From Protofrankia sp. CiT1 (GTDB lineage: Bacteria > Actinomycetota > Actinomycetes > Frankiales > Frankiaceae): a stretch of DNA of 34,909 nt. Numbering within the stretch: position 1 is the stretch's first letter; the number at the start of each line of letters is the position of its first letter. The stretch spans positions 1 to 34,909 of the forward strand of contig NZ_CAKJTL010000144.1 of NCBI RefSeq assembly GCF_917627385.1, in the 5' to 3' direction. The position numbers were made by a program, and so were the translations under genes. Below are positions 9,891 through 34,909 of this stretch, one piece after another. Below the pieces are notes generated by a model, which searched no databases, was not told the origin of the DNA, and worked only from the letters and a program-made list of their open reading frames with translations.

Positions 9891-10317
9891 GGAGCACGGG
9901 ACAAAGCGGGACAAAAATGAACGCGGGTGAGGTGGGCGCCGGGCGAGCGGAAGCTTCGTCTCCGGTGTTTTGGCTACGGGCACATTTCGGCTGGGCGGGC
10001 ATCCGTCCGTGCCAGCCAGGATGCTTGCAGGACGGATTGGGCCGCCTGGCCAGTGTGCCGAGCTGTCTTCGCGTGTCACCGAGATCCGCGGAGATTTGCG
10101 GCCGGAGTGGTCTGATGCGCTGGAACCCGCCTGGAAACCTGCCGGGAATTCAGGGCAGACAGGCCGCGCTTGATACCCGAAGAAGATCGATATGGCGTCG
10201 CGACGTGAGGAGGTGGCTGGTTGTCGACCACACTATCCAGCGCGGCTGCACAAGCCCTGGCTGGCTCTCATTGGACCTCACGGAAATCATATTAGCTATG
10301 TGCAATGATATGCGGAA

Positions 10318-10342: not shown

Positions 10343-10599
10343 GTCATCAGCTCAGGGGCTGCTGACGTCGTCTCCGGGTGTGCGTGGGCGCGATGCTCGC
10401 AGGCCGCGGGCAGGGATCTGGCCGGCTGCCTTGGCGCGATCGCGCTGTTCGTCGACGGCGGTGGCGGAAACATCCCTGGGAATATTCATCGGGATCTTCC
10501 GCATCGGTACGGGAATGGCGCCCGGACCGCTGGCGCAGCCGGAGCGGAATGACGATCTTTGCCACCGGCCGACAGGTTGAGTGGCGCCAGCAACAGAAT

Positions 10600-10636
10600 G
10601 TGGATCAAGAAGTGGGGCTGGGGTGCGTGCATCGCG
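10600..10636. repeat. Decayed single arm of the palindromic repeat family (copy E)
   Basis: The 37 bases beginning GTGGATCAAGAAGTGGGGCT and ending GCATCGCG match one arm of the long palindromic repeats at 23682-23841 and 25461-25626. The AATAGG terminus and the second arm are not recognisable, so this is a remnant. Confidence 0.65.
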
Positions 10637-15244: not shown

Positions 15245-15318
15245 TTTGTCGCCTTCGGTCCACCGATCGGTGCTCGGCGTCCCGCCTCAGCCCCTCACAC
15301 AGCGTGGGCCAGCAGCTC

Positions 15319-15354
15319 CGCTCCTTGATCCACGCCCCTATTGCCGGGCGCTCT
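15319..15354. repeat. Single arm of the palindromic repeat family (copy A)
   Basis: The stretch holding CTCCTTGATCCAC, then CCTATTGCCGGGCGCTCT, matches the right-hand arm of the repeats at 23682-23841 and 25461-25626. It lies about 50 bp from the sulfatase 3' end. A short segment GCGAGGTGCGTGCCCTG at about 15389-15405 resembles the other arm in reverse, but no full palindrome is preserved. Confidence 0.7.
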
Positions 15355-15403
15355 AGGAGCGCTTGGCGATGGATGGGAGTGACGCGGCGAGGTGCGTGCC
15401 CTG

Positions 15404-17895: not shown

Positions 17896-18807
17896 TCAGG
17901 CGTCAGGCGTGACTCGCCAGCGTGACAACCGCCGTTCAACGGCCAGGAGCAGGTGGTTGATGCCGAGCCCGATCACGGAGATCGTGATGATCCCGGCGTA
18001 CATCTCCTCGATGGCGAAGTTGGACTGCGCATAATTGATCAGATAGCCGAGCCCGGCCTTGGCGCCGACCAGCTCAGCGGCTATCAGCACCACGATCGCG
18101 AAGGACCCGGCGAGGCGGATGCCGGTGAAGACCGTCGGCACGGCGGCGGGAAGGATGACCTTCTGGAACAGCCGCGGTGACGACAGGCCCATCGACCGCG
18201 CAGACTTGATCAATAGCGGGTCGACATTTTGGACACCACTGATGGTGTTCAACAGGATCGGCCAGACGCAGGCGTAGGTGACAATTCCGATCTTTGATGC
18301 CTCGCCCAGGCCGAGAATCAGCACGAACACCGGTAGGAGGGCGAGCGCCGCGGTGTTGCGGAACAGTTCCAGCAATGGGCTCAGGACCTCCGCCACCGTC
18401 CGGAACCAACCGATCAGCAGGCCCAGCGGCAGCGCGATCGCGACGGCGAGTGCGAAACCAGCACCGGTGCGTTGCAGGCTGGCCTGGGTGTGCACCCAGA
18501 GGTCACCGCTGTTGAACAGCGCCCACCATTCTTTGATCACTTCCGAGAACGGCGGTAGGAACACCCGGTCGACAACACCCCAGCGGGGCAGCAGCTCCCA
18601 CGCGGCCAGCAGGGCGATGATTGCCGCGGTGCGGCGCAGAACGGCGGACGCGACCCGCAGCGGCGCGACCCACCATCGCCGACCGCGCTGCCTGGAGAGC
18701 TCATCGGGGTCGATCAAACCGTCGGTCGCGGTCGAGGGCTCGATCGCGGTCACGGTCACGGTCACGGTCACGGTCGAACCGATGGTCTCATCGATGGTTG
18801 CCGACAC
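17896..18807 (-). CDS. ssuC: ABC transporter permease, SsuC-like (sulfonate/sulfate ester)
   Basis: 303 residues with about six membrane helices of the nitrate/sulfonate/taurine permease family (AAIIALLAAWELLPRWG, then LPPFSEVIKEWWALF). The EAA-type loop SARSMGLSSPRLFQKVILPAA and the following VFTGIRLAGSFAIVVLIAAEL contact the ATPase. The N-terminus contains a VTVTVTVT run coded by a hexanucleotide repeat. The start overlaps ssuB by 20 nt. It forms the import channel with SsuB; the sulfatase gene downstream suggests sulfate esters among its cargo. The gene symbol is by family resemblance. Confidence 0.9.
   Translation of the reverse strand: MSATIDETIGSTVTVTVTVTAIEPSTATDGLIDPDELSRQRGRRWWVAPLRVASAVLRRTAAIIALLAAWELLPRWGVVDRVFLPPFSEVIKEWWALFNSGDLWVHTQASLQRTGAGFALAVAIALPLGLLIGWFRTVAEVLSPLLELFRNTAALALLPVFVLILGLGEASKIGIVTYACVWPILLNTISGVQNVDPLLIKSARSMGLSSPRLFQKVILPAAVPTVFTGIRLAGSFAIVVLIAAELVGAKAGLGYLINYAQSNFAIEEMYAGIITISVIGLGINHLLLAVERRLSRWRVTPDA
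18748..18775. repeat. Hexanucleotide tandem repeat in ssuC N-terminus
   Basis: Four full GGTCAC units plus GGTC (plus strand). On the coding strand it reads GTGACC repeated and gives alternating Val-Thr. Copy change would add or remove a Val-Thr pair without shifting frame. Confidence 0.85.
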
Positions 18808-19678
18808 CGGTCACCTCTTTCCGGTCATGCTCGTTCGTCCCAGCCGCTTCGTGATCGCCGTCGACCCGGCGTTCGGCCTGCTGTGCCTTGGCGACCTCGT
18901 CGTGGAGCAGCTCCCAGAGCAGGTGCCGGTAGCGCACGAACTCCGGGTCGGAGCGGGGGTCGCCGCTGTCATCGCTGATGGAAGGGACGTCAACGATCTG
19001 TTTGATCCGGCCGGGTCGCGACGTCATCACGGCGACCCGCTGACCGAGATACACGGCCTCGTCGATCGAGTGCGTAATGAAAAGGATCGTCTTGCGCGTC
19101 TGCGCCCAGATCCGCAGCAGTTCGTCCTGCAGCGTTTCGCGGGTCTGCGCATCGAGCGCGGCGAACGGCTCGTCCATGAGCAGAACCGCCGGATCGTAGG
19201 CGAGGCTGCGTGCGATCGCCACCCGCTGCTTCATGCCGCCGGACAGCTCATGGGGATAGCGGCGTTCGAATCCGGTGAGACCGACCAGGTCCAGATACGA
19301 CTTCGCCCGGACGGAACGTTCGGACCTCGGTACACGCTTGGCCTCAAGGCCGAACTCGATGTTCCCGAGCGCGGTCCGCCACGGGAACAGCGCATACTGT
19401 TGGAAGACGATCCCGCGGTCGAGACCCGGGCCCGAGACCGGAGCCCCGTCGACCAGGATGCGTCCACCGCTGGGTCTGGTCAGTCCACCGAGCAGGTCGA
19501 GCAGGGTGGACTTACCGCAGCCGCTCGGCCCGACCAAAACGAGGAATTCTCCACTGCGGATGTCCAGGTCCACGCCGGAGACCGCGGTGAAGCCAGTGGT
19601 CGTGCCATGCGATCCCGCGTCGGCCCGGACGGTGAACTTCTTCGTGACGTGCTGGAATTCGATCGTAGTCATGTGCAT
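18788..19678 (-). CDS. ssuB: ABC transporter ATP-binding protein, SsuB-like
   Basis: 296 residues, a single ABC ATPase of the nitrate/sulfonate/taurine branch. Walker A is GPSGCGKST (about 52-60), the Q-loop lies in IVFQQYALFPW, the signature is LSGGMKQR, and Walker B is VLLMDEP with FAALDAQTRE. The H-loop is in LFITHSIDEAVYLGQR. It drives uptake through SsuC. Start may be ATG 19678 or ATG 19672; GAGG lies four bases before the first and ten before the second. A large hairpin and a repeat element separate it from ssuA, which may lower its expression relative to the binding protein. Confidence 0.93.
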   Translation of the reverse strand: MHMTTIEFQHVTKKFTVRADAGSHGTTTGFTAVSGVDLDIRSGEFLVLVGPSGCGKSTLLDLLGGLTRPSGGRILVDGAPVSGPGLDRGIVFQQYALFPWRTALGNIEFGLEAKRVPRSERSVRAKSYLDLVGLTGFERRYPHELSGGMKQRVAIARSLAYDPAVLLMDEPFAALDAQTRETLQDELLRIWAQTRKTILFITHSIDEAVYLGQRVAVMTSRPGRIKQIVDVPSISDDSGDPRSDPEFVRYRHLLWELLHDEVAKAQQAERRVDGDHEAAGTNEHDRKEVTGVGNHR

Positions 19679-19694
19679 TCATCCTCACCGCGGT

Positions 19695-19735
19695 GGCAGG
19701 TGGTTCCCGGCCCGGTGTACCGGGAACCACCTGCC
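19695..19735. terminator. Intra-operon hairpin between ssuA and ssuB
   Basis: Perfect 16-bp arms GGCAGGTGGTTCCCGG and CCGGGAACCACCTGCC around a 9-base loop, extendable by about three more pairs including one G-T. It lies 75 bases after the ssuA stop and 17 before the ssuB start, with no U tract. Likely a partial terminator or an mRNA 3' stabiliser. Confidence 0.65.
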
Positions 19736-19749
19736 GCCCGCCGGGGTTG

Positions 19750-19809
19750 GAACGTGTTTGCGAAGGAATGTTCGATCAGCGAGCCGGAGCGGACATCTCA
19801 AACACGTTC
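19750..19809. repeat. Short inverted-repeat element, copy 2 (directly after ssuA stop)
   Basis: 60 bp with perfect 11-bp terminal inverted repeats GAACGTGTTTG and CAAACACGTTC. It abuts the ssuA stop codon (19810-19812) with no gap. The 20-bp core is identical to the copy inside dppA at 9715-9770. No coding capacity. Looks like a miniature palindromic repeat. Confidence 0.8.
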
Positions 19810-20847
19810 TCAGGAGCCGGTGGCAGTTCGGAACGGATTGAACTCGTTGGTGTAGAGATCGGTGAGCACGACGTCTTTCTTCAGCTCGCCGCGCCCCCAC
19901 AGAAAGTCGATCCAGCGGGTGAAGTCCGTGTCCTGGATGAGTCCGCCCTGCCCGGCCACCCCGTAGCTCTTCCAGAACTTGATCGCGGTTTTGTCCTCCT
20001 GGCGGCCCCGTTTGTCGATGATCTGCTCGAATCGGGCGACCACCTCCGCACGGGGTGTCGTCTTCGCCCATTCCAGCGCTCTGGCGACACCATCGACAAA
20101 CTGCTTCGTGGTCCTGGGGTTCTTCGCGATGAAATCCTTCCGCAATACCACGGTGCCCGCGGAGAACGTCCCGTAGAGCGCGAAGTCGCTGAACAGCGGG
20201 TGGATCCCTCCTCGCTCCAGCGCCTTGTCCCGCAGAATTCCGCCGAGTGCGGCGACGTCGATCTGCCCGGCGCGCAGGGCCTGCTCGGTGTTGACCGGCG
20301 GAACCACGGTGGGAACGACCTGTTTGACCTCGTCGGCGCTGAGGCCCTGCTGCTTGAGGTAGGTGTCCAGGACGGCCTCAAGATGCGCGCCGAGCGTGTT
20401 CATGCCGATCTTCTTGCCGATCAGGTCCTTTGCGGAGGTGATCGGGCTTCCGTCACGCACGTAATAGCCGATGTAGGAGTCCTTGTCGACACCGTAGTAG
20501 CTGATCACTGCTTTGATCGGGGCGCCGGCGGCTACCAGCTTGATGACGGCACCGTTGAACGCACCGCCGAAGTCGGTGTCACCCGTGGCGGCGGCCTGGA
20601 TGTCCTGCGGTCCGCTGATGGTGTTGCCGATCCACTTGAGTGTGATCGGGCCGAGGTAGCCGAGGTCCGCGGCAAGTTCGGCGGGGGTGACCTGGCCGAC
20701 CGAGCCCTGGTAGCGCAGTTCGGTCTGCTCACTGCCCGCGCTCGCACCGCTGTTGCCACCGCCGCAGGCCGCTGCCGCCAGGGCCGTCACGGCCAGGAGC
20801 GAGGCGACGCCGACGGTCTTGGATTTCCAGCGGATGGTGCGGAACAT
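19810..20847 (-). CDS. ssuA: ABC transporter substrate-binding lipoprotein, SsuA-like
   Basis: 345 residues. The signal peptide has lipobox LAAAAC (Cys at about 28), so the protein is anchored outside the membrane. The body is the nitrate/sulfonate/taurine binding fold (ELAADLGYLGPITLKWIG, ATGDTDFGGAFNGAVIKLVAAGAPIKAV, the ALRAGQIDVAALG hinge block). ATG at 20847 has GAAGGA six bases upstream. First gene of the ssuABC-sulfatase operon, divergent from the tauD pair. Aliphatic sulfonates or sulfate esters are the probable ligands; exact substrate unknown. Confidence 0.92.
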   Translation of the reverse strand: MFRTIRWKSKTVGVASLLAVTALAAAACGGGNSGASAGSEQTELRYQGSVGQVTPAELAADLGYLGPITLKWIGNTISGPQDIQAAATGDTDFGGAFNGAVIKLVAAGAPIKAVISYYGVDKDSYIGYYVRDGSPITSAKDLIGKKIGMNTLGAHLEAVLDTYLKQQGLSADEVKQVVPTVVPPVNTEQALRAGQIDVAALGGILRDKALERGGIHPLFSDFALYGTFSAGTVVLRKDFIAKNPRTTKQFVDGVARALEWAKTTPRAEVVARFEQIIDKRGRQEDKTAIKFWKSYGVAGQGGLIQDTDFTRWIDFLWGRGELKKDVVLTDLYTNEFNPFRTATGS

Positions 20848-21790: not shown

Positions 21791-22726
21791 ATGACGCATG
21801 TCGTACACGAACTGGGGGTCGACGTCCGACCTCTCTCCGGTTACACCGGGGCTGAGATCCACGGCGTCGACCTGAGCCAGGATCTCGACGACCAGACCGT
21901 CGCTGAGATCCGCTCTGCCCTCCTGCGCTGGAAGGTCGTCTTCTTCCGCGGCCAGTCGATCGGCCACGCCGAGCAGATCGCCTTCGCGGCGAAGTTCGGT
22001 GAGCTCACACCCGCCCATCCCTATGAGGACGAGCCGCCGGCCGGCTTCCCGCAGATCCTGCCCATCGACAGCCGACGTTACGAGGCGAAGTTCGGCACGA
22101 GGAAGGTGACGTACGACAACGGCTGGCACACTGACGTCACGGCGCTGGTGAACCCGCCGGCCGGGTCCATCCTGCGTGCCGACATCGTCCCGCCGTACGG
22201 CGGTGACACCGCTTGGACCAACCTCGTCGCGGCCTATGAGGGCCTGCCGGCTCCACTGCGGAGCCTGGCCGACCAGCTGCGCGCCAAGCACAGCTTCGGC
22301 GGGAACCGCCGTCTGTTCGCCGCCGACTCGGCCTATGCGAGGAAGGTCGCAGCCGAACCACTGCTGGCGATCCACCCGGTGGTACGCGTCCATCCGGAGA
22401 GCGGGGAGCGTGCGCTGTTCGTCAGCCCGAGCTTCACCGCGGGCGAGAGCGAGATCATCGGATTTTCGTCCCGCCAGAGCCGCCGGCTGCTCGAACTGTT
22501 CTACGAGGAGGTGTCCCGGCCGGAGTACACGGTGAGGTTCCGGTGGCAGCCGGGAGACGTCGCGTTCTGGGACAACCGGGCCACCGCGCATCTCGGGCCG
22601 TCCGATCTCGGCCATCTCGACTTTGACCGGGTGCTGTACCGGGTCACCCTCGTCGGCGACATTCCTGTCGGCGTTGACGGGCAGCAATCCGAACTCGTCA
22701 CCGGGCAGCCTTTTCTCGCGCACTGA
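21791..22726 (+). CDS. TauD/AtsK-type 2-oxoglutarate dioxygenase, copy 1
   Basis: 311 residues. The iron triad is His113 and Asp115 in WHTDVT and His267 in RATAHLGPSD; the 2-oxoglutarate Arg follows in RVLYRVTL. The N-terminal block SGYTGAEIHGVDLSQDL and VVFFRGQ are family features. Such enzymes hydroxylate taurine, other sulfonates or alkyl sulfate esters at the carbon next to sulfur, releasing sulfite or sulfate plus an aldehyde. GGAG lies nine bases before the ATG. Neighbouring ssuABC and sulfatase genes favour a sulfur role over herbicide-type TfdA activity. Substrate cannot be fixed from sequence. Confidence 0.9.
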   Translation: MTHVVHELGVDVRPLSGYTGAEIHGVDLSQDLDDQTVAEIRSALLRWKVVFFRGQSIGHAEQIAFAAKFGELTPAHPYEDEPPAGFPQILPIDSRRYEAKFGTRKVTYDNGWHTDVTALVNPPAGSILRADIVPPYGGDTAWTNLVAAYEGLPAPLRSLADQLRAKHSFGGNRRLFAADSAYARKVAAEPLLAIHPVVRVHPESGERALFVSPSFTAGESEIIGFSSRQSRRLLELFYEEVSRPEYTVRFRWQPGDVAFWDNRATAHLGPSDLGHLDFDRVLYRVTLVGDIPVGVDGQQSELVTGQPFLAH

Positions 22727-22771
22727 GCACCTGAACGACTGGTCAACCCGAACGATCGATCAAGGAGAACA

Positions 22772-23677
22772 ATGACCGTCATCGGTACTGATTTCGACGT
22801 CCGGAGGGTCGCTGGACGCATCGGCGCCGAGGTGCTCGGCGTGGACCTTCGCGACGATCTCGGCGACGAGACGATCGCTTTGCTCCGGGCGGCGTTGCTG
22901 GAGCACAAGGCACTGTTCTTCCGCGGCCAGACGCTTGCTGACGAGAGCCAGCAGCGTTTCGCCGCGCGTTTCGGCGAGCTCACCACGGCGCATCCGACCG
23001 TTCCGTCCCTGGACGGCAGCCCCAACGTGCTGCGGGTCGATTCGGCTGAGGGCCGGGCCAACAACTGGCACACCGATGTCACGTTCATCGTCAGTCCACC
23101 GTCCGCGAGCACGCTGCGCAGCATCGTAGTCCCGCCCTATGGTGGGGACACCCTCATCGCGAACTCCGCGGCCGCCTACCGGGACCTGCCCGTCGATCTG
23201 CGCGAACTCGCCGACCGGATCTGGGCGGAGCACACCAACGACTATGACTATGCGATACCGCCGGCGAATTCGGAGAAGACGAAGGCCTTGCGGGAGAAAT
23301 TCGTCTCCCGGAAGTACCGGACCGCTCACCCGGTGGTCCGCGTACATCCTGAAACGGGGGAGAGGGGCCTGTTCATCGGCGGTTTCGCGCAGCGTGTCGT
23401 CGGCCTGTCCACAACCGAGTCACGGGATATCCTCCGCCTGTTGCAGACCTATGTGACCCGGCCGGAGAACACCGTTCGCTGGCGGTGGGCGCCAGGCGAC
23501 CTCGCCTTCTTCGACAATCGGATCACCCAGCACTACGCGGTGGACGACTACGGCGACCTCCCACGTCTGTTGCATCGGGTGACCGTGGCCGGTGGTGTGC
23601 CGGTGGGGGTGGACGGCCGGCGTAGCTACGCGATTGACGGTGACGACGCCTCGCATTACACGCCGGTCGCGGTGTAA
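22772..23677 (+). CDS. TauD/AtsK-type 2-oxoglutarate dioxygenase, copy 2
   Basis: 301 residues, paralogous to the preceding gene and 45 nt downstream, with AAGGAG before its ATG. The iron ligands are His100 and Asp102 in WHTDVT and His254 in RITQHYAVDDYG; the cosubstrate Arg is in RLLHRVTV. Both copies share the C-terminal PVGVDG block. The loop between the first Asp and the C-terminal half differs (TNDYDYAIPPANSEKTKALR here), pointing to a different substrate. Co-transcribed with copy 1. A palindromic repeat begins four bases after the stop. Confidence 0.9.
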   Translation: MTVIGTDFDVRRVAGRIGAEVLGVDLRDDLGDETIALLRAALLEHKALFFRGQTLADESQQRFAARFGELTTAHPTVPSLDGSPNVLRVDSAEGRANNWHTDVTFIVSPPSASTLRSIVVPPYGGDTLIANSAAAYRDLPVDLRELADRIWAEHTNDYDYAIPPANSEKTKALREKFVSRKYRTAHPVVRVHPETGERGLFIGGFAQRVVGLSTTESRDILRLLQTYVTRPENTVRWRWAPGDLAFFDNRITQHYAVDDYGDLPRLLHRVTVAGGVPVGVDGRRSYAIDGDDASHYTPVAV

Positions 23678-23681
23678 TGAA

Positions 23682-23841
23682 GAGCGACCGGCAATAGGGG
23701 ACGTGGCGTCGCGGGGCCAGGGCACGCACCTCGCGTCGTTGTCGTCGGCCCCGGTAGAAACACCGCTACCGGGGCCTCCGCCTCGCGACACACGCACCCC
23801 AGCCCCGCTTCTTGATCCATATTCCTATTGCCGGGCGCTCT
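23682..23841. repeat. Long palindromic repeat, copy B
   Basis: About 160 bp. It starts GAGCGACCGGCAATAGG and ends CCTATTGCCGGGCGCTC, so the termini form a near-perfect inverted repeat. Inner arms partly pair (GGGCACGCACCTCGCG on the left, CGCGACACACGCACCCC on the right), and the middle contains a second hairpin, GCCCCGGTAG / CTACCGGGGC. No open frame of note. Sits directly after tauD2. Confidence 0.8.
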
Positions 23842-23886
23842 CCTTCGTTGCTGTCCGATACTCATTGGCTGGGTGCGACTCTCTCG

Positions 23887-23938
23887 ATCCGCCCCGTCAC
23901 CGGTTCATTCCGATGGCGGGGCGGATTTTTCTGTTTTT
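23887..23938 (+). terminator. Intrinsic terminator after the tauD pair
   Basis: Perfect 10-bp arms ATCCGCCCCG (23887-23896) and CGGGGCGGAT (23917-23926), then TTTTTCTGTTTTT. A classic Rho-independent terminator for plus-strand transcripts, ending 12 bp before the -35 of the leader promoter. It separates the tauD operon from the leader-ROK unit. Confidence 0.88.
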
Positions 23939-23950
23939 CCACTGGGCTAG

Positions 23951-23979
23951 TTGACAATCTTCGTCGATCTGCTTACGGT
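23951..23979 (+). promoter_or_regulatory. Sigma-70 type promoter of the leader peptide-ROK unit
   Basis: The -35 is TTGACA (23951-23956), spacer 17 bp, and the -10 is TACGGT (23974-23979). The leader ATG is at 23987, seven bases after the -10, which is where transcription should begin. The transcript is therefore probably leaderless and the first codon is the start of the mRNA. Confidence 0.75.
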
Positions 23980-23986
23980 CAGCGGT

Positions 23987-24067
23987 ATGTGCGGGCACAT
24001 CTTCCTGGTCGGTCGCGCCCACGTCGACCTGCGTCGAGTGGCGAGCGCGCTCTGTTCGTCGGCCTGA
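23987..24067 (+). CDS. Cysteine-containing leader peptide (sulfur-gene type)
   Basis: 26 codons, ATG to TGA. The peptide ends in the pattern HVDLRRVASALCSSA, which matches the short peptides found ahead of sulfur assimilation genes in Streptomyces and relatives (R-x-H-V-D-L-x-R-x-x-S-A-x-C) and commonly annotated as putative leader peptides. Cys codons are TGC at position 2 and TGT at position 23, three residues before the end. The likely job is regulatory: ribosome speed at the late Cys codon reports cysteinyl-tRNA supply and sets the fold of the RNA behind it. A perfect hairpin starts three bases after the stop. The start codon fits a leaderless mRNA. Confidence 0.82.
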   Translation: MCGHIFLVGRAHVDLRRVASALCSSA

Positions 24068-24070
24068 CCG

Positions 24071-24092
24071 GGTCACGCCATCTGGCGTGACC
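24071..24092 (+). promoter_or_regulatory. Attenuator-like hairpin after the leader peptide
   Basis: Perfect 10-bp arms GGTCACGCCA and TGGCGTGACC with only TC between them, beginning three bases after the leader stop. The 3' arm GGCGTGACC (24084-24092) can also pair with GGTCGCGCC inside the leader coding sequence (24011-24019), nine pairs with one G-U, so the two folds exclude each other. There is no U tract, which points to Rho-linked or pausing control rather than simple intrinsic termination. Confidence 0.65.
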
Positions 24093-24263
24093 AATTGTCG
24101 ACATTCACGAAAACTGTCGCCCGTACCGGATGTTTCCACGCCGCATTCCGCCGGTTTCACGACCACGGGCGGAGTGAGGAGTGCGCCCCGACGTCCGCCC
24201 GCGGTGCGGCCCGTGACCGCAGCGCCGTGGCTCCGCGCTACCGCGGTGTATGGAGGGCATTCC

Positions 24264-25553
24264 GTGCCGGTGCACATACAGAGCCAGGTTCCGTCGCGGC
24301 CCACCACCGCGGGTCACCCCGGCACCACTGGTTCCGCCGCGGCTGTCCTGCGCGCCGTGCTCGACCACGGGCCGGTGGCCCGTACCCTCATCGGCCGGGC
24401 GACCGGGCTGAGCCCGGCGGCCGTGTCGAGGCAGACCGCGGATATGATCTCGCTCGGGCTGCTGCGGGAGGCGCCGGTGCCTACCGACCCACCTCGCGCA
24501 GGCCGGCCCTTCGTTCCCCTGGACATCGACACCCGACACCACATCGCCTGCGGTGTGCACATCGCGGTGCCCTTCATCACCTTCAGCCTGGTGGACCTGC
24601 GCGGCCGGGTACTGGCCGAGGAGAACATGCCCCACCACGGCGCGCCCGGCGAGGTGCTCCGCCAGATCGGCGAGCACGTCCCCCGTTTCACCGCGCGCCA
24701 TTGCCGGGGAAGCCGCCCCGTCGGCCTGGGCGTGGTCACCGGCGGCCGGGTGGATCCGCAGCGCGGTGTCATCCTTGAGCACAGCCTGCTGGGCTGGCGC
24801 GACGTGTCGGTGCGTCAGGTACTCGCCGCGGCGACGAGCCTGCCGGTCCACGTGGACGGCCACGCTCGCGCACTCGCCCAGGCTGAGATCCTGTTCGGGG
24901 ATCCACGGGCCCGACGCAGCCTGGTGCACCTGTTCGTCGGCAACGTCGTCGATGCGGCGATTGCCACTGGCGGCACAGTGCACCACGGCCGGCATTGCGG
25001 CGCCGGGGATGTAGCCCACCTGCAGTTGATGGATGTGCCGGTGACCTGCCCCTGTGGCCGCTCCGGCTGCCTGCAGGCAGCGATCTCGGAACAGACCCTG
25101 GTGGACCGGGCCATCCGGGCCGGATTGATCCAAAGCCCGGATATAGCGAGCCTGGTGGAGGTGGCCCGGCGCGGTGACCCCGGGGTGCTGGCGCTCGTGC
25201 GCGATCGTCTTCGCATTGTCGGCCGTGTGGTGGCCATGCTCCTGGACATGATTGACCCCGAGGTGCTCGTGCTCACCGAATGCACTACGATCTTCCTGCC
25301 GGAGCTGCTGGCCGACCTGTACGAAGAGATCGCGGCGCACTCGCGGTTGCGCGACAGCCCTGAGCTCACGGTGCTTCCAAGCAGCTTCGGCCCGCAGGCT
25401 CTCGCCGTCGCGGCGGGCGCGGCGGTGCTCGATGCCGTCCATCGCAGCCCACGAAGCCTAAGAACGCCCGGCAATAGGGGTGCGGATCAAGGAGCGGGGC
25501 TGGGGCACGCATCTCGCGTCGTTGTCGACGGTCGCAGCCCAACACCAGGGTGA
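24264..25553 (+). CDS. ROK family transcriptional regulator
   Basis: 429 residues from GTG 24264, chosen because GGAGGG lies six bases upstream; the frame is open further upstream but without a comparable site. An N-terminal winged helix (about 20-75: AAAVLRAVLDHGPVARTLIGRATGLSPAAVSRQTADMI) is followed by a ROK domain. The ROK zinc motif is intact: GAGDVAHLQ then CPCGRSGCLQ. The kinase DxGxT motif is replaced by GVHIAVPF and the sugar-binding Asn-Asp region reads VDGHARALAQAE, so sugar phosphorylation is unlikely and the ligand may not be a sugar. It lies behind a cysteine leader peptide beside sulfur scavenging genes, so it probably controls them. Residues 400-429 are encoded by palindromic repeat C. 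Confidence 0.88.
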   Translation: MPVHIQSQVPSRPTTAGHPGTTGSAAAVLRAVLDHGPVARTLIGRATGLSPAAVSRQTADMISLGLLREAPVPTDPPRAGRPFVPLDIDTRHHIACGVHIAVPFITFSLVDLRGRVLAEENMPHHGAPGEVLRQIGEHVPRFTARHCRGSRPVGLGVVTGGRVDPQRGVILEHSLLGWRDVSVRQVLAAATSLPVHVDGHARALAQAEILFGDPRARRSLVHLFVGNVVDAAIATGGTVHHGRHCGAGDVAHLQLMDVPVTCPCGRSGCLQAAISEQTLVDRAIRAGLIQSPDIASLVEVARRGDPGVLALVRDRLRIVGRVVAMLLDMIDPEVLVLTECTTIFLPELLADLYEEIAAHSRLRDSPELTVLPSSFGPQALAVAAGAAVLDAVHRSPRSLRTPGNRGADQGAGLGHASRVVVDGRSPTPG

Positions 25554-25626
25554 CTCTCTCCGCCGCCTCGCGATGCACGCACCCCAGCCCCACTCCTTGA
25601 TCCACTTCTCTATTGTCGGGGGCTCT
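25461..25626. repeat. Long palindromic repeat, copy C (overlaps ROK 3' end)
   Basis: About 166 bp with arms of roughly 55 bp. The left arm runs from AGAACGCCCGGCAATAGG through GGATCAAGGAGCGGGGCTGG to CATCTCGCG. The right arm is its inverted counterpart, from CGCGATGCACGCACCCCAGC through CTCCTTGATCCAC to GGGGGCTCT. The first 93 bp are read as the last 30 codons and stop of the ROK gene. Confidence 0.85.
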
Positions 25627-25651
25627 AATTTTCGGTGATAGTGGGACTACA

Positions 25652-34546: not shown

Positions 34547-34800
34547 GTGCGCAGGGCGGCTGACTATGTACCCAGACGAGCCGTAGAGCTGATCATGGAG
34601 GTGTTGTCCGACACGCGGGTCGTGGTCGTCAACGGTGCCCGCCAGGTCGGTAAGAGCACCTGGCCGAGGTTGTGCTGCGGGCGCGGGCCGACGGGGTGGC
34701 ACGGTTTCTCGATGATCCGGCGACCCGGGCCGCCGCTACCGAGGACCCGGTCCTGTTCATTCGCCACGACGGCCTGATGCTCAAGCGCGACCGGCAATAG
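34547..34800 (+). pseudogene. AAA ATPase (AAA_14/DUF4143 type), frameshifted and truncated
   Basis: From GTG 34547 the frame gives a normal family opening with VVVVNGARQVGKST, the Walker A region. At about 34660 one C seems to be missing: with it restored the sequence continues LAEVVLRARADGVARFLDD and DPVLFIRHDGLML. Family members then run for 300 or more further residues with Walker B and DUF4143, but here a TAG follows at 34798, inside palindromic repeat copy D. Only the first 85 or so residues remain. Confidence 0.8.
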
Positions 34801-34909
34801 GGGACGCGGCGTCGCGGGACTGGGGCACGCGCCTCGCGTCATCGCTCCCCGTCCATCGCTGCGCGAGGCACGGGTACCCCGGCTCGTCAGTCGCCACCCC
34901 CAACCGGGT
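34785..34909. repeat. Long palindromic repeat, copy D (runs to window end)
   Basis: Begins AGCGCGACCGGCAATAGGGG and continues GCGTCGCGGG, then GGGGCACGCGCCTCGCGTC, matching the left arm of copy B. After CGCTGCGCGAGGCAC it diverges, and the window ends before a right terminus is seen. It interrupts the AAA ATPase remnant. Confidence 0.7.

Follow-up and report, generated by a model that had tools for sequence, protein, structure and literature searches.

A probable cysteine-responsive leader peptide ahead of a ROK regulator gene in Protofrankia, and the invariant UGU codon of its family

How might a very short ORF, lying directly ahead of a gene for a ROK-family regulator, tie that regulator to the supply of cysteine? 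The question is raised by a locus of Protofrankia sp. CiT1 within a stretch of 34,909 nucleotides, here called the window. A sequence-only reading of this DNA had proposed that expression of the ROK protein is set by cysteine through translation of a leader peptide, and the promoter, ATG, 26-codon ORF, hairpin, GGAGGG and GTG that it named all lie, when read directly, at the positions it gave (Table 1). The reading favoured here, with a probability of roughly 70%, is that a leaderless leader of the NF042934 family ties the expression of a ROK regulator of sulfur scavenging to cysteine. The leader ORF itself probably acts as the sensor of cysteine shortage.

Table 1. Coordinates of the leader, the ROK gene and neighbouring features in the window
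Feature	Coordinates	Strand	Remarks
Ssu/Tau-like ABC importer: binding protein, ATPase, permease	17896-20847	-	NCBIfam matches below cut-off
TauD-like dioxygenase	21791-22726	+	PF02668, 193 bits; orthologue directly after ROK in many relatives
TauD-like dioxygenase	22772-23677	+	PF02668, 220 bits
Intrinsic terminator of the upstream tauD genes	23887-23938	+	Long GC stem and T-rich tail; read directly
Promoter, TAnnnT type	23951-23979	+	TTGACA 23951-23956, 17-nt spacer, TACGGT 23974-23979; read directly
Leader ORF, predicted leaderless	23987-24067	+	ATG at 23987, 7 nt after TACGGT; 26 codons, MCGHIFLVGRAHVDLRRVASALCSSA, then stop; NF042934 match
Cys codon 23 (TGT), conserved motif cysteine, proposed stall codon	24053-24055	+	TGT in 138/138 aligned leaders
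Hairpin	24071-24092	+	GGTCACGCCA (24071-24080), TC, TGGCGTGACC (24083-24092); 10-bp; lineage-specific; z -5.1
Shine-Dalgarno sequence GGAGGG of the ROK gene	24252-24257	+	Read directly
ROK-family regulator gene, MarR-type HTH and ROK domain	24264-25553	+	GTG start at 24264; PF00480, PF12802

The product of the downstream gene matches PF00480 with 95 bits and PF12802 with 34 bits, both over the cut-offs, which gives a ROK domain with an N-terminal HTH. AGGAGG-type Shine-Dalgarno sequences are also found at the Frankiaceae orthologues of this gene. The conserved region of the ORF stops near 25460. A dispersed repeat with inverted ends (GGCAATAG...CTATTG) occupies 25466-25630, where it overlaps the ROK gene at its 3' end, and 23711-23841, just past the second tauD gene, with fragments near 10595-10636, 15313-15355 and 34791-34840. 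This repeat apparently replaces the last ROK residues, and the orthologue at locus L036 has a different C-terminus.

Its profile match makes the window leader one ordinary case of a known and widespread family. It scores 36 bits against the NCBIfam model NF042934 ('putative leader peptide', cis_reg_atten), for which the cut-off is 27, with E = 2.0e-7 over the whole 5.02-Mb genome, where three places exceed that cut-off; motif, length and final Cys are common to the family and the window leader. NF042934 is present in 110 of 148 Actinomycetes genomes, often in several copies, and in none of the 14 control genomes. The family is defined by sequence, and no experiment behind it was found in a literature search; an Rfam search of the window returned no match. 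A second NF042934 leader in the window, at 10150-10233 on the reverse strand (RRHIDLLRVSSAACLP), lies upstream of a dipeptide/oligopeptide-type ABC operon (9800-4259, reverse strand). Its motif Cys is also TGT, and its GTG start is a reading by eye.

Peptide residues are conserved among these leaders while synonymous third bases vary, which indicates that the leader peptide is under selection. It is hardly credible that the ORF encodes a trans-acting small protein or has no function, even though products of such ORFs could be stable: the leader has a fixed position ahead of ROK or SsuA, its C-terminus is variable after the motif Cys, and a single genome may hold up to 11 copies. The Frankiaceae orthologues have TTGACA (TTGAAA once) and a TAnnnT-like -10 element 7-8 nt ahead of the leader ATG. 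In many loci such a -10 element stands about 7-8 nt before the start codon even where the -35 element is unlike TTGACA, and the spacing from -10 element to ATG is retained across families. This kept spacing supports leaderless transcription of the leader. The window promoter itself went unscored in a simple promoter scan, as TACGGT is too distant from TATAAT. Chance does not explain the arrangement, in view of the leader's E-value, the retention of leader and promoter spacing at orthologues, and the behaviour of the hairpin against shuffled sequences.

The ROK orthologues are 51-82% identical to the window protein, and the nearest relatives come from Candidatus Frankia meridionalis (82%), Candidatus Frankia californiensis and Protofrankia coriariae, which puts the window genome among these Frankiaceae. 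Within Frankiaceae, a leader of the NF042934 type was found at every ROK orthologue with enough upstream sequence, a count that leaves out L020 (cut at a contig end) and L035 (a fragment). About half of the 80 named loci from a genome-wide scan have a leader directly ahead of ROK, and such pairs occur in Frankiaceae, Pseudonocardiaceae (Lentzea, Saccharothrix, Pseudonocardia, Umezawaea) and Streptomycetaceae. The earlier reading had suggested seeking HVDLxRxxSALC peptides ahead of ROK genes; leaders of the HxDL type are present there in three actinobacterial families. An HMM scan found the known leaders again and, in addition, L057, L060 and L091. Many related ROK loci, for example in Kitasatospora and Actinoplanes, carry no leader directly ahead of ROK; where it is missing there, a leader often precedes the SsuA operon, as in Kitasatospora and at some Lentzea and Saccharothrix loci. 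Scans of the loci without a leader for leaderless Cys ORFs and for a relaxed motif, run with no positive control, found none.

Profile matches and gene order give the leader a sulfur-gene setting and place ROK in TauD/Ssu clusters. In most relatives the leader, ROK, TauD and/or SsuA, and SsuC/SsuB follow in order, all on one strand, with an FMN monooxygenase gene besides at the Streptomyces locus that was examined. The window carries a sulfatase as well, and sulfonate/taurine ABC families are among the best NCBIfam matches of its importer but remain below their cut-offs. In the window and its closest relative, leader and ROK are preceded by the TauD genes, which in most relatives come after ROK; judged by gene order against L037, L039 and L041, window positions 21791-25553 are a local rearrangement of the TauD genes. 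The tauD terminator, partly caught by a terminator scan, separates these genes from the leader unit. Since the tauD genes come before the leader and behind their own terminator, ROK may be the only gene that the window leader controls. The conservation of the leader-ROK pair and its sulfonate operon setting together make cysteine-responsive leader control the best reading on comparative grounds.

The manner in which the leader would act on ROK had been ascribed to the hairpin and an alternative pairing of its 3' arm. The hairpin, separated from the leader stop by the three bases CCG (read directly), folds as well in only 1 of 200 shuffles, and the claimed pairing of its 3' arm with leader codons 9-11 (GGTCGCGCC, 24011-24019) does exist, with 9 pairs, one of them G-U. 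A strong hairpin (z -5.1) and a real 9-pair alternative are what classical transcription attenuation would require, with the hairpin terminating transcription unless codons 9-11 pair with its 3' arm. Such attenuation is nevertheless quite unlikely here: no U-tract follows the hairpin, where AATTGTCG is found instead, whereas the neighbouring tauD terminator has a T run; the hairpin is absent from the other orthologues, and in the closest relative codons 9-11 are not the same. Over the 45 nt that follow the stop, 43 loci were compared (mean z -0.05), and only the window and this closest relative score below z -2; none of the 43 has more than 3 consecutive T before ROK. As a conserved terminator or attenuator, the hairpin was rejected because it is not conserved beyond the closest relative and has no U-tract.

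A different mechanism is reported for M. smegmatis: RNA structure hides the ribosome-binding site (RBS), which a ribosome stalled at Cys codons then frees. Translational attenuation of ROK along these lines has the closest experimentally studied precedent (M. smegmatis, Canestrari 2020), and the ROK gene has a Shine-Dalgarno sequence of its own, but it looks unlikely at this locus. When a ribosome was masked at the Cys codon in a folding model, the opening energy of the ROK start shifted by 0.3 kcal/mol in the window, and the effect in the other modelled loci (23 loci modelled) ranged from -4.9 to +6.7 with no trend, mostly resembling shuffles. Relief of RBS masking by a ribosome at the Cys codon was therefore set aside, being unsupported in the window and inconsistent over the modelled loci. 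Conservation, the missing U-tract and the folding results thus back neither a classical terminator nor RBS unmasking. The proposal that hairpin and alternative pairing form a switch fails on the same grounds, modelled stalling bringing no opening of the start site; what stands of the earlier account is a cysteine-linked, probably leaderless leader ahead of ROK, in a sulfur locus and conserved across three families.

Candidate leader peptides of cys operons in Actinobacteria were described by Seliverstov et al. (2005, PMC1262725), with no terminator and with a suggested Rho-dependent mode. The window leader resembles these in being a leader peptide with a late Cys codon and no terminator, but the published leaders carry runs of Cys codons and precede biosynthetic operons. 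No run of Cys codons is present in the window leader, whose cysteines are encoded by codons 2 and 23 only; the early one is not conserved, and codon 23 alone is. A Rho-dependent step after the leader, as proposed by Seliverstov et al. (PMC1262725), is favoured with modest confidence. Under cysteine-responsive control, transcription would start at or next to the leader AUG, and ribosomes would translate R-A-H-V-D-L-R-R-V-A-S-A-L-C. With Cys-tRNA scarce, they would stall at the single conserved UGU codon, a stall that the conserved nascent peptide and slow wobble decoding of UGU would favour. A ribosome halted there would alter the fate of the 196-nt stretch from leader to ROK, most likely by preventing termination through Rho or a termination-prone structure, so that ROK would be made and the sulfonate genes could be controlled. 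What the sequences show is the leader itself, its place in the family, its conservation with ROK, the sulfur setting, the spacing expected of a leaderless transcript and the invariant UGU; that the leader is translated, that ribosomes stall on it, which way the response runs and what follows the stall are inferred.

The proposed stall codon is written in one way only. In all 138 aligned NF042934-type leaders the last motif Cys codon is TGT, although shared ancestry means that these are not 138 independent draws. The leaders (L013, L036-L115, L136-L145 and L156-L245) comprise 52 ahead of ROK and 86 from the family search, the latter from about 39 genera; the 86 are 92 non-ROK leaders minus six missed by the regular expression, two of which carry TGT by eye. 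Background use of TGT for Cys is 10.5% across the ROK genes at the 80 loci and 14.9% in long ORFs of high GC3. Other cysteines of the family-search leaders are mostly TGC, in 45 of 47 cases two residues past the motif Asp and in 25 of 32 cases seven residues past it. The Asp codon itself varies (GAC 115, GAT 23), and so do the bases flanking TGT on both sides. The invariance is not a search artefact, since no Cys was required by the peptide pattern that retrieved the 52 ROK-linked leaders, and synonymous change elsewhere in the leader ORFs shows that there was time for drift. A fixed TGT beside other Cys codons that are mostly TGC points to selection on codon identity, beyond cysteine itself, at the final leader Cys.

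This pattern bears on a further alternative, a TnaC-like arrest peptide that would sense a sulfur metabolite directly inside the ribosome and not a shortage of Cys-tRNA. Residue conservation outside the Cys codon is unusually strong, with free synonymous change, and differs from that of leaders keeping the regulatory codons alone, as an arrest peptide would have it. The alternative is still rather improbable, as no element is kept more strictly than the Cys codon, and a sensor relying on the peptide alone leaves the TGT bias unexplained. Both Cys codons are normally decoded by one tRNA, so charging of isoacceptors cannot explain the UGU rule. Within cysteine-responsive control, a tentative proposal, held at somewhat less than even odds, is that the switch reads UGU, never UGC, together with the conserved nascent peptide. 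It would then be a codon-specific cysteine sensor shared by the whole family, for which either wobble decoding by tRNA-Cys or the presence of UGU at the stall site would be essential. No description of the UGU rule was found in a literature search that covered Canestrari 2020 through PMC9031893.

The leader family is known, and ROK as its target is partly precedented. One regulator to consider is Rv0485, presumably a ROK-type protein encoded next to mshA. A conserved Cys-rich leaderless ORF ahead of Rv0485/Msmeg_0932 was shown by Shell et al. (2015; PMC4633059, Fig. 7B), whose text is silent on ROK, and the literature search found no paper naming Rv0485 and ROK together. Polycysteine ORFs stand ahead of ROK genes in Mycobacteriaceae (Mycobacterium and Rhodococcus, judged from the loci), which indirectly supports a ROK identity of Rv0485; a PF00480 match confirmed one of the genes. 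In the same search, g119, a genus with small genomes, gave weak matches only, at about 1e-18 to 1e-26. Such ORFs and that of Shell et al. (PMC4633059) leave the claim that a ROK target was undescribed without support. By synteny, the Rv0485/Msmeg_0932 system resembles the window in having a leaderless small ORF with cysteines before a ROK regulator, but it differs in its polycysteine tract, in its peptide, and in the mycothiol gene mshA, in place of sulfonate genes, after ROK. The ROKs differ too, those of Mycobacteriaceae forming their own clade apart from the HxDL-leader ROK clade. In both Mycobacteriaceae loci with the next gene identified (2/2), mshA follows ROK, with MshA over the cut-off.

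At L246 (608-3206) and L250, a polycysteine leader is followed by ROK and then by MshA of mycothiol synthesis, an order from which a cysteine leader may also touch mycothiol supply. The Rhodococcus-like ROK leaders (L124, L126-L130) have another conserved peptide, VTYVTAALGLRLPLTRELCC, and two that were tested had no NCBIfam match.

According to PMC9031893, which summarises Canestrari 2020, leaderless ORFs with Cys codons control downstream genes by cysteine availability in M. smegmatis. These polycysteine attenuators share with the window leader the leaderless spacing, late cysteine codons and sulfur-related targets, whereas the window has one conserved Cys, a long conserved peptide and nothing that points to masking of the RBS. 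In Corynebacterium glutamicum, the ROK regulators SsuR and CysR activate sulfur acquisition genes; their own genes are leaderless and under McbR control (ssuR under that of CysR too), with no leader peptide reported (PMC2580772). The window ROK is likened to them by family and by its place among sulfur genes.

The link between leader and ROK is old, with the HxDL type in Frankiaceae, Pseudonocardiaceae and Streptomycetaceae and polycysteine leaders before a related ROK clade in Mycobacteriaceae. The invariance of UGU is the single surprising feature of an otherwise common leader family and its broader lead, since a synonymous mutation would be a simple probe of the way in which charging is sensed at an attenuator codon. 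The locus extends the targets of cysteine leader peptides to a sulfur-scavenging regulator. Should ROK act as SsuR does, the leader would put cysteine supply above the whole sulfonate operon.
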